DNA of 64,000 nucleotides from Spartobacteria bacterium (GTDB lineage: Bacteria > Verrucomicrobiota > Verrucomicrobiia > Chthoniobacterales > UBA10450): contig PMTM01000003.1 in the NCBI GenBank assembly GCA_003167365.1, positions 16,980 through 80,979 on the forward strand, written 5' to 3'. A model generated the notes under the pieces. The model was given only the letters and a program-made list of their open reading frames with translations. It had not been told where the DNA came from and searched no databases. A program made the position numbers and the translations under genes. This document shows positions 1-48,920 of the stretch, piece by piece (within the stretch, counting starts at the first letter, position 1; every line of letters begins with the position of its first letter).

Positions 1-70
1 CTGTAGTTCAGCTTGGTAGAACGCTTGAATGGGGTTCAAGAGGTCGTGGGTTCAAATCCCGCCAGCCCGA
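1..70 (+). tRNA. tRNA-Pro (GGG anticodon), 5' end cut off by window
   Basis: Cloverleaf tRNA missing its first four bases, which lie outside the window. The anticodon stem CTTGA/TCAAG closes the seven-base loop ATGGGGT, giving anticodon GGG and hence proline. The T arm (GTGGG TTCAAAT CCCGC) and the 3' acceptor strand CAGCCCG plus discriminator A are intact. No CCA is encoded. The sequence aligns closely with the complete tRNA-Pro at 4397-4470. Its last 30 bases recur exactly at 359-388, which marks a likely insertion target. Confidence 0.9.
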
Positions 71-388
71 TGTTTCCGAAAAACAGGCCGATAAATAAAG
101 GTATGTTTTATGTCTATGTTCTGAGGAGCCGCAAGACAGGTCGCCGTTATGTTGGATCCTGCGAGAATTTAGGTGATCGTCTTCAACGCCATAATGCCGG
201 CGAATCGAAAGCCACACGACACGGCACTCCGTGGACTCTGCTACACAGCGAAAGTTTTTCGACCCGTCGCGAAGCTGCCGGGAAGGAACGCTATTATAAA
301 ACAGGACGAGGACGCGACGAACTCGACCGGTTGGCCCTGTAACGGTCGCCGCGGCGACAGGTCGTGGGTTCAAATCCCGCCAGCCCGA
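41..388 (+). mobile_element. candidate tRNA-targeted GIY-YIG mini-element
   Basis: Positions 41-70 (3' third of tRNA-Pro) and 359-388 are identical over 30 bases in direct orientation. They bound a unit of 318 bp whose only gene is the GIY-YIG nuclease at 103-342. This is the geometry of integration into a tRNA 3' end with the target sequence duplicated. No integrase or transposase is present, so mobility would have to depend on the nuclease and host repair. The homing interpretation is inference; the direct repeat is seen directly. Confidence 0.55.
103..342 (+). CDS. small GIY-YIG family nuclease (UPF0213-like)
   Basis: A 79-residue protein that is essentially a lone GIY-YIG nuclease fold. 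VYVL near residues 4-7 and RYVGS near 14-18 supply the two signature strands, followed by the DRLQRHN helix with the expected Arg and a KERYYK segment with the catalytic-type Glu. Stand-alone proteins of this size occur widely in bacteria; their substrates are mostly unknown. Start chosen at ATG 103. The reading frame stays open upstream into the tRNA, but the extra residues (such as VVGSNPASP) are translated tRNA and not a real N terminus. The gene sits between tRNA-Pro and a second copy of that tRNA's 3' end, suggesting a homing-type element. Alternative start: ATG 70. Confidence 0.75.
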   Translation: MFYVYVLRSRKTGRRYVGSCENLGDRLQRHNAGESKATRHGTPWTLLHSESFSTRREAAGKERYYKTGRGRDELDRLAL

Positions 389-4170: not shown

Positions 4171-4396
4171 ATTACGCAAGGATCGGACGGGGCGAAATGC
4201 TTCCGTCGGGAACTGAAGAATGGCCGTCGAACTGCCTGCGAGAACTGTGGGAGAAAGTAGTGGAGCAAGCATGGCAAAAACGAATATTAATTTTGCGAGT
4301 GACGGAAATGGTTGTCAACCGATTTGTTAAGCCTTGCGAAGGCCAGCGAAATACGCGAAGTAAGGCGCTCCGGATCGAAAAACGATCCTTTCAGCT

Positions 4397-4470
4397 CGGG
4401 CTGTGGCTCAGCTTGGTAGAGCGCCTGCCTCGGGTGCAGGAGGCCGTGGGTTCAAATCCCACCAGCCCGA
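4397..4470 (+). tRNA. tRNA-Pro (CGG anticodon)
   Basis: A complete 74-base cloverleaf. Acceptor strands CGGGCTG (4397-4403) and CAGCCCG (4463-4469) pair fully, with discriminator A at 4470. Anticodon stem CCTGC/GCAGG closes loop CTCGGGT, so the anticodon is CGG and reads CCG. CCA is not encoded. It is a close relative of the partial tRNA-Pro(GGG) at position 1 but has no GIY-YIG gene behind it. Confidence 0.95.
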
Positions 4471-4514
4471 TGATTTCTGAAGTCGGGGATTGACGCGCCT
4501 GCCACAATTTTCTA

Positions 4515-15714: not shown

Positions 15715-17007
15715 TTGAAACTGCCGTTTAGTCTTTTCCTCGCACTGCGGTATCTAAAACCGAAGCGCACCTTTCTCTCGATCATTACATTGATCTCGAT
15801 CCTGGGGGTGACGCTCGGTGTAACCGTGCTCATCCTCGTCATCTCGGTGATGACCGGGTTCGATCGCGAGCTGCGGCAGAAGGTGATCGATTTCGACGCC
15901 CACATTCTCGTGGGCAGCGAAGACATTTTGTACGACTGGCGCGCGCTCAAGACGAAGCTCGACCATACGCCCGGCGTGGTCGCGACCGCGCCCTTCGTTC
16001 AAGGTCCCGTTATCGTCGAATTCGAAAATCGCCGGCTCGCGCCGATGATCCGTGGCGTCGATCCTGAACAGGAAGAAAAAGTCATTCCGCTGCGCAAGTT
16101 CATTAAGCAGGGGAAACTGGATCTTGAAGGCGAGTCGACCGTGCTGGGCATTGAGCTTGCGCGAAAGTTGCGCGTCAAAGTCGGCGACAAGATCACGATT
16201 TATTCACCGGGAAATCTTAGCCAGGTCCTCGATGGAATTAAGAAACTCGAGAACGCGAAAGGCGATGAAGAACAAAAAGCGATCGATGGATTGCGCGACG
16301 TGATTTTGCCGAAAGAGCTGACCGTCACCGGCATTTTCGAGACCGGCCATTACGTTCACGACTCGGAATTCCTGCTGGTGCCGATTTATGTCGGACAAGA
16401 ATTATACGGTCTCGGCGATGCCTTGCACGGCATCACGGTGAAAACCGACAATCCCTACGGCGCCGAACGCGTGAAGAAATCAATCGAACAATTTCTCGAG
16501 CCGCCCGAGTTCGCCCAGACCTGGATCGACATGAACCACCAGTTTTTCGAAGCGGTCCGGCTGGAACGCACGGTCATGTTTTTTCTGCTCTTCTTCATCG
16601 TGGTCGTAGCTGCGTTTGGAATCATGAGCACGCTCATAACCGTAACAGTGCAAAAGACACGCGAGATCGGAATCATGAAAGCGCTTGGCGCAAATATTTC
16701 GCAAATCATTTGGATTTTCCTTGGACAGGGAACCGTCGTCGGCCTCTTCGGAACGCTCACTGGCCTCGGCCTCGGTATGACTTTGATTCGCTACCGCAAC
16801 GAATTTAGTCAATGGCTCGCATCGACCTTGCACATCGAGATTTTTCCGCGCGAGGTTTACCAGTTTTCCGAAATCCCGGCGCAAATCGTACCGCAGGATG
16901 TCTGGATCATTTGCGTCAGCGCGTTTTTCATCTGCTCATTTGCCGCGCTCATACCTGCGTACTTCGCCGCGCGCCTCGATCCAGTCAAAGCGCTGCGCTA
17001 CGAGTAG
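15715..17007 (+). CDS. lipoprotein-releasing ABC transporter permease (LolC/LolE family)
   Basis: A 430-residue permease with the MacB/FtsX-type layout: one N-terminal helix (SIITLISILGVTLGVTVLI), a large periplasmic domain (about 45-280), then three helices at the end. FLALRYLKPKRTFLSIITL is the LolC/E N-terminal hallmark, and QKTREIGIMKALGA the cytoplasmic coupling segment. The complex extracts lipoproteins from the inner membrane. Start is TTG 15715. The ATPase partner LolD is not adjacent. Whether it corresponds to LolC or LolE, or acts as a single LolCE-type homodimer, cannot be told. Confidence 0.9.
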   Translation: MKLPFSLFLALRYLKPKRTFLSIITLISILGVTLGVTVLILVISVMTGFDRELRQKVIDFDAHILVGSEDILYDWRALKTKLDHTPGVVATAPFVQGPVIVEFENRRLAPMIRGVDPEQEEKVIPLRKFIKQGKLDLEGESTVLGIELARKLRVKVGDKITIYSPGNLSQVLDGIKKLENAKGDEEQKAIDGLRDVILPKELTVTGIFETGHYVHDSEFLLVPIYVGQELYGLGDALHGITVKTDNPYGAERVKKSIEQFLEPPEFAQTWIDMNHQFFEAVRLERTVMFFLLFFIVVVAAFGIMSTLITVTVQKTREIGIMKALGANISQIIWIFLGQGTVVGLFGTLTGLGLGMTLIRYRNEFSQWLASTLHIEIFPREVYQFSEIPAQIVPQDVWIICVSAFFICSFAALIPAYFAARLDPVKALRYE

Positions 17008-48789: not shown

Positions 48790-48920
48790 CACGCAATTAC
48801 GCGTGTCATCCTGAGCGGAGCGAAGGACCTCCCATATACTGCGTCGATCCTGCCGTGATCTTTTGCGTAACTAAGCACCCATTGCGAGGTCCCTCGCCGT
48901 CTGCGCGGCACGGGATGACG
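48790..48920. repeat. GTCATCCTGAGCGGAGCGAAGGACCT-type inverted repeat
   Basis: GTCATCCTGAGCGGAGCGAA at 48807-48826 and its approximate complement GGTCCCTCGCCGTCTGCGCG...GGGATGAC at about 48892-48919 form an imperfect long palindrome. It is a repeat style known from several soil phyla. It lies in the 172-base gap between the ATPase and permease genes. Confidence 0.65.

Follow-up and report, generated by a model that had tools for sequence, protein, structure and literature searches.

The window, the whole stretch of 64,000 nucleotides that was analysed, begins with a tRNA-Pro(GGG) gene (positions 1–70; the features in this paragraph all lie on the forward strand), followed by a single small nuclease gene and a second, partial copy of the tRNA. 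The first bases of the tRNA gene, CGGG, are missing, lost to a scaffold gap of two Ns that immediately precedes position 1, and because of this loss the gene is missed by ARAGORN; a complete, identical tRNA-Pro(GGG) is present in a relative (locus L033). The 17-nt anticodon arm of the intact tRNA, CTTGAATGGGGTTCAAG, occupies positions 24–40, and the 3′ half, from the variable loop to the discriminator base, occupies positions 41–70. A spacer (71–102) separates the tRNA from a GIY-YIG nuclease gene (103–342), which has an ATG start and a TAA stop and encodes an Slx1/UPF0213-like protein of 79 residues. Overlapping its stop codon is a remnant of the D-arm (338–344), which reads TGTAACG where the tRNA has TAGAACG. 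This remnant leads into a perfect 14-nt palindrome, GTCGCCGCGGCGAC (345–358), and then into the right copy of the tRNA 3′ half (359–388). The second copy is a partial tRNA in which a hairpin stands in for the anticodon arm, and it is fused directly to the native 3′ flank, whose continuity is seen in sister loci. The native downstream neighbour, the ychF GTPase gene (549–1727), lies outside the element and serves as a marker for empty and occupied sites.

The two copies of the 3′ half form an exact 30-nt direct repeat (41–70 and 359–388, spacing 318) that brackets the nuclease gene. Between the repeats the GIY-YIG gene stands alone, with no integrase gene and no gene for a tyrosine or serine recombinase. 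The original prediction had read the locus as a 318-bp unit without an integrase, in which an exact 30-base repeat of the tRNA 3′ end follows a lone GIY-YIG gene, and its coordinates are correct; the palindrome at 345–358, a left partial tRNA copy outside the window and a second (Met/Lys) subfamily go beyond it. This left partial copy carries the same palindrome, GTCGCCGCGGCGAC, and lies just outside the window (contig C9, approximately 16880–16950). Given the scaffold gap and this left half, the left side of the window copy is uncertain and not fully resolved. The tRNA gene that hosts the element appears to be single-copy, because a pattern search of the source genome finds the GGG-type T-arm at two places only, the tRNA at 1–70 and the right copy. 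One other tRNA-Pro gene, tRNA-Pro(CGG), has a T-arm that is one mismatch from this pattern. It lies approximately 4 kb away in the window (4396–4471), is unoccupied and has the same flanking motifs, and so provides a natural test of how targets are chosen.

The window unit is not a one-off, because its layout is repeated in the same genome at locus L005, where a tRNA-Met(CAT) gene is accompanied by a GIY-YIG gene 28% identical to the window gene and has its 3′ end repeated exactly over 37 nt. Two further GIY-YIG genes (L001, G000:C1:127684; L004, G000:C23:175538) have no tRNA linkage and lie between inverted copies of a dispersed repeat, GTCATCCTGARCGRAG. The source genome holds approximately 68 copies of this repeat (0 for the reversed-pattern control), one of them in the window at 48805–48820. 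The arrangement at these two genes suggests another pairing of nuclease and repeat, and the flanking GTCATCCTGARCGRAG copies fit the idea that nucleases of this kind are generally paired with palindromic DNA.

The window protein matches the GIY-YIG family (PF01541) with a score of 53.1 bits against a cut-off of 22.6. The catalytic residues Y5, Y16, G18, R26, H30 and E62 are conserved, and Y5, Y16, R26, H30 and E62 are invariant in 35 sequences. The AF2 model (pLDDT of 95.8) is nearest in fold to UPF0213 (1zg2) and Slx1 and then to the catalytic domain of I-TevI, the I-TevI alignment being limited to that domain; the solved relatives are 1zg2, 1ywl, 7cq3 and 6seh. The 79-residue single-domain protein has no separate DNA-binding domain and, with a TIGR01453 score below threshold (23.4 bits, cut-off 56), falls outside the I-TevI/group I intron type. 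A conserved C-terminal Asn is found in the UvrC/homing lineage, and the minimal GIY-YIG proteins of the Slx1/UPF0213 cluster are without it (PMC1564403). This residue is absent from the alignment of the window's Pro-type clade and, as judged from its absence and from the nearest solved folds of the model, the window protein is a member of the Slx1/UPF0213 cluster. The median dN/dS is 0.15 for the Pro type and 0.20 for the Met/Lys type, and the protein is therefore maintained under purifying selection. On the protein tree the target isoacceptor changes 8 times and the host label 20 times, counts that are used as a hint only, the protein being too short for a firmly resolved tree. No match to the window protein was found in 50,697 phage records, among plasmids or among viral contigs; no carrier of these kinds was identified, and a phage or plasmid origin was rejected on these searches. 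A defence system was rejected as well, the PADLOC models giving nothing beyond weak partial matches.

In 83 genomes of the same family as the source, approximately 29 close homologues with loci were found, and a tRNA-Pro gene lies immediately 5′ of every one that was checked. The three tRNA-Pro isoacceptors are all represented and most copies have the 3′ repeat; several are pseudogenes. The second subfamily comprises approximately 28 loci at tRNA-Met or tRNA-Lys, the source genome included, with the same layout as the Pro type and with consistent sequence differences between Met- and Lys-targeting proteins. Across the phylum, a profile search of 388 genomes, followed by checks of 88 loci, returned 106 GIY-YIG genes; 68 of these have a same-strand tRNA at most 600 nt upstream, a count that is not the fraction among all GIY-YIG genes, since the 106 were picked by similarity to a tRNA-linked profile, and 28 have a detectable 3′ copy. 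The chance expectation for a tRNA upstream, calculated from assumed tRNA densities, is approximately 0.3–0.5%. The targets in this survey are tRNA-Met, -Pro, -Thr, -Ser, -Arg, -Tyr, -Ala, -Asn and -Leu. A contig scan with the Pro-type profile found named relatives in MAGs of soil Verrucomicrobia, Planctomycetota (with the same hairpin and an identity of up to 76%), a MAG labelled Deltaproteobacteria, Bacteroidota and Balneolaceae. In the Bacteroidota sample, 110 of 297 genomes contain a match, and a tRNA with a 3′ copy accompanies 36 of the 78 genes examined, a few of which come from named non-Bacteroidota records. One relative, in Flavipsychrobacter stenotrophus RB1R16 (Bacteroidota, L237), is at tRNA-Val. 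The window unit is a member of a widespread class of tRNA-inserted single-gene elements.

Most of the hosts are MAGs and the window tRNA adjoins an N-gap, as would be the case were the architecture a product of assembly or binning; however, it is found in many independent assemblies and at many tRNAs, with intact reading frames under selection, and also in genomes of the search set that consist of one or a few contigs (G178) and in a named strain, RB1R16. An artefact of this kind is extremely improbable and in general already refuted, apart from the left side of the window copy, whose exact form the gap leaves uncertain. A remnant of a larger integrative element was rejected too: no larger form and no recombinase was found, and the tandem units and the tRNA-to-copy distances are approximately 300–430 bp across phyla.

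Tandem arrays of near-identical tRNA-linked GIY-YIG units, with up to five units, are present in Bacteroidota and in other Verrucomicrobiota. They include five units of 315 bp at tRNA-Asp (L343), four of 322 bp at tRNA-Pro (L347), three of 358 bp at tRNA-Arg (L346) and three of 323 bp (L345), with further threefold arrays at tRNA-Arg (L243), tRNA-Thr (L244) and tRNA-Ala (L278).

The hairpin of the leftover tRNA copy is a recurrent feature of the elements. In the Pro clade the right copy reads TAG(A/T)(G/A)CG-GTCGCCGCGGCGAC-AGG(T/C)CG..., comprising the end of the D-arm, the palindrome at the place of the anticodon arm and the 3′ half, and the Met and Lys elements have CCCCGAAAGCTTTCGGGG as their palindrome, with the arms CCCCGAAA..TTTCGGGG. 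A perfect stem of at least 6 bp abuts the right copy in 82% of 89 elements, which cover approximately 15 tRNA species, compared with 3.2% of control positions placed at random within the same loci. The arms vary between lineages with their complementarity kept (GCCGCC..GGCGGC at L018, GTCGCC..GGCGAC in others), and the type of hairpin follows the nuclease clade and not the tRNA, GTCGCC..GGCGAC being found in the Pro clade even in Planctomycetota. The right copy, in turn, matches the local tRNA at 29.5 of 30 positions, against 24.8 of 30 for other loci; two loci (L018 and L030) were mis-anchored by the script in this comparison, with no effect on the result. Usually a segment of the tRNA is replaced by the hairpin, and the anticodon arm is the commonest such segment. 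In tRNA-fMet-like and tRNA-Asn genes the hairpin takes the place of 8 nt located 3′ of the anticodon loop, and in tRNA-Ser and tRNA-Leu genes that of part of the T-stem; these pieces are not whole arms, and the breakpoint varies by lineage. The palindrome was also considered as an ordinary dispersed repeat and rejected as such, since exact copies of the 18-mer in the 83 genomes lie mostly in tRNA contexts (2 matches for the reversed control). Left half-copies upstream of the intact tRNA (L012, approximately 1296–1362; L027; L038; L110) have an extra 26–30-nt insertion in the D-loop, ..CCGCC..GGACGGA.TCGC..GGCGAG.., which is partly palindromic.

Sister genomes differ in the occupation of the same tRNA gene. 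At the tRNA-Pro(GGG)–ychF site, G016 and G013 are empty, G018 is occupied in a right-sided form and G017 on both sides, and both flanks align through. G073 has the left form only, with the native 3′ flank and no gene, where its relative G067 has the right form. At tRNA-Pro(TGG), G045 is empty, G044 has the left form only and G046 has both. Of 30 TGG loci for which tRNA similarity was the sole criterion of selection, 16 lack the element and 13 hold the gene or its remnant; gene-less relics are found in G011 and G060. Empty sites with preserved flanks prove that the element inserted, at a point inside the tRNA and usually in the anticodon arm, and genome comparison gives good support to its mobility. 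The original prediction of a self-sufficient unit that rebuilds the tRNA 3′ end stands as regards a self-contained, tRNA-targeted insertion with a rebuilt tRNA, and has to be corrected as regards the insertion point, which is at the anticodon arm inside the tRNA and not at the 3′ end. The tRNA, GIY-YIG gene and duplicated 3′ end that it proposed to seek in relatives are found together at Pro, Met, Lys and many other tRNAs, and strains with and without the insert at the same tRNA exist (occupied in G018, G017 and G046; empty in G016, G013 and G045). Two explanations that it had named as contrary do not describe the data: the gene is not at a fixed position in all relatives without tRNA duplication, its presence being patchy, and the sequence at 359–388 is not a chance or unrelated repeat, since a long exact copy of a tRNA 3′ half beside such a gene recurs at L005 and in dozens of relatives.

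The promoters provide a further record of the insertion. The native promoter seen in G045 precedes the left half and not the complete tRNA in G044 and G046; there the complete tRNA is driven from another promoter, which is most similar to the promoters of other element copies. From these positions it follows that the native tRNA was split and that the complete tRNA and its promoter came with the element. Such transplanted promoters are at odds with a passive tRNA-linked repeat, that is, a domesticated repair nuclease beside repeats that owe their origin to illegitimate recombination and to tandem duplication and not to targeted mobility. The many pseudogenes would suit it, and the tandem arrays of identical units (L343, L347) indicate that unequal crossing-over probably occurs; but the patchy presence with clean empty sites, the independent occupation of approximately 15 tRNA species and the coupling of the hairpin to the nuclease clade across phyla all speak against it, and this already disfavoured reading is improbable. 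The carriage of a whole tRNA with a promoter by some elements, and the element boundaries within tRNA arms, would also be in keeping with a tRNA-directed toxin or addiction module, in which the protein cleaves the tRNA itself, as RNA, in an arm and the linked copy is the replacement. We hold this to be very improbable: GIY-YIG enzymes are DNases, the linked tRNA is identical to that of the host and hence would be cleaved as well, and the halves and hairpins at the DNA level are left without explanation.

Some loci have a more complex structure. At L018 (G020), two successive left half-units, each with a promoter, a tRNA 5′ half and the palindrome, lie 128 nt apart before the intact tRNA, as if a left-sided insertion had happened twice. 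The left and right halves at L017 (G071) come from different tRNA-Pro alleles, GGGCCG-type and CAGCCC-type, hinting at stepwise insertion or conversion. Upstream of ychF at L080 (G045), an extra insertion of approximately 850 bp separates the element from ychF; it holds a gene of its own and one more copy of the tRNA 3′ end.

We propose that these units are minimal mobile elements of tRNA genes, and consider it reasonably likely that the predicted nuclease breaks a tRNA gene and that repair copies the element in. The element comprises, in order, the rest of the tRNA, a spacer, the GIY-YIG gene, approximately 7 nt of tRNA, the hairpin and the native 3′ part of the tRNA, inserted at a fixed point within the tRNA, usually in the anticodon arm. 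On one side the full tRNA is restored, and on the other a partial copy is left, with the hairpin in place of the broken segment; two-sided versions bring in both a whole tRNA and a promoter for it, and the native tRNA is reduced to two dead halves. The Slx1-like nuclease, acting on the cognate hairpin and/or the folded tRNA arm, would break an unoccupied tRNA gene, and homologous repair, templated by an occupied copy whose two tRNA halves serve as homology arms, would copy the element in. The four pairings of the broken ends with the donor tRNA halves would give exactly the empty, left-sided, right-sided and two-sided states, and all four are found. The nuclease-made break and its repair from the occupied copy are steps that we infer; a precedent for the break is SegB, a phage GIY-YIG homing endonuclease that cleaves inside tRNA genes and drives recombination and tandem amplification (PMC13096335).

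The distribution, with the gene in some alleles of a fixed site and with other sites empty, is that of homing in the functional sense. Sister genomes with and without the element have the same intact tRNA, the leftover copy being the one disrupted by the hairpin, and because of this identity the self-protection of homing elements by site disruption is not visible. The weak point of break and repair is that occupation leaves the intact tRNA unchanged, so that its sparing by the nuclease is unaccounted for. Also against it are the unoccupied tRNA-Pro(CGG) gene (4396–4471), which shares a genome with the nuclease, the single-domain build of the protein with no separate DNA-binding domain, the fMet, Asn, Ser and Leu hairpins, which replace less than a whole arm, and the lack of any match to the window protein in the searches for a phage, plasmid or viral-contig carrier.

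The sparing of intact tRNA genes would be accounted for by the main rival, in which the same mobile element moves through single-stranded DNA. The nuclease would cut its cognate hairpin in single-stranded DNA, at the replication fork or during natural transformation, and the tRNA-flanked strand would anneal into another tRNA gene, with no double-strand break in the intact gene. The conserved, covarying hairpins at the element boundary, the Slx1/UPF0213-like single-domain nuclease and the two other GIY-YIG genes of the genome that are flanked by an inverted repeat of approximately 68 copies are in line with such a route. Ssn GIY-YIG nucleases are reported to be site-specific for single-stranded DNA and to act on the Neisseria dRS3-type repeat, which arms of the TCCCGC..GCGGGA type resemble. 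At most tRNAs, however, the artificial hairpin is on one side only of the insertion, and we regard the single-stranded route as rather unlikely.

Several known systems come close to the elements. The Ssn systems likewise pair a small standalone GIY-YIG protein with a specific palindromic repeat, as the tRNA elements do with their cognate hairpin, but to our knowledge are not tRNA-inserted units. The standalone UPF0213 and Slx1 domains, the nearest solved folds, have the minimal domain in common with the window protein; Slx1 works with Slx4, and we know of no linkage of either to duplicated tRNA ends. Integrase elements and prophages in tRNA genes also insert in the tRNA, restore it through a carried 3′ segment and leave a direct repeat; unlike these, the GIY-YIG units have no integrase, measure approximately 300 bp, put a hairpin in place of a tRNA arm and can restore the tRNA from the 5′ side too, with a promoter. 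Free-standing GIY-YIG homing genes near tRNAs are already known, in phages. SegB and SegB-like genes of T-even and other phages likewise lie beside tRNA genes of a wide range of isotypes; SegB is phage-borne, and the accessible part of the source mentions for it neither a rebuilt tRNA nor half-copies of a tRNA nor a cognate hairpin (PMC13096335). The window protein, with 79 residues, no extra domain and no match in the phage collection, falls outside the SegB-like type. The REP/RAYT system shares with the tRNA elements a single nuclease-type gene and cognate hairpins, but RAYT is a tyrosine (HUH) transposase, not a GIY-YIG protein, and REPs are dispersed and not tRNA-specific (PMC3733652).

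With slightly less than even confidence, we suggest that the elements represent a new class of mobile DNA, in which a putative structure-specific nuclease of approximately 80 residues and its cognate hairpin parasitize folded tRNA genes. The class would swap a tRNA arm for the hairpin, carry the missing part of the tRNA or a whole tRNA with a promoter, and span many tRNA species and several phyla with no integrase, transposase or DNA-binding domain. In the literature searched, which was partial in coverage and did not extend to preprints, no description of such tRNA-inserted units was found, and the novelty is provisional. If the proposal is correct, a single enzyme of 80 residues and a single hairpin form an element that ranks among the smallest autonomous ones known and resides in the tRNA genes of several bacterial phyla, and an element can live in a single-copy essential RNA gene by rebuilding that gene. 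The proposal would also account for many 'GIY-YIG nuclease' genes and fragments of tRNAs beside tRNA genes that have so far had no explanation, and would supply small nucleases together with their natural cognate hairpins. How a nuclease gene may home into tRNA genes while keeping the tRNA that is needed is thereby made a testable question.

The leftover copies also bear on tRNA annotation. At L232 (Opitutales), ARAGORN calls the hairpin-bearing copy 3′ of the GIY-YIG gene a tRNA-Ile, and because pseudo-copies are called as tRNAs in this way, tRNA counts are possibly inflated in such genomes.
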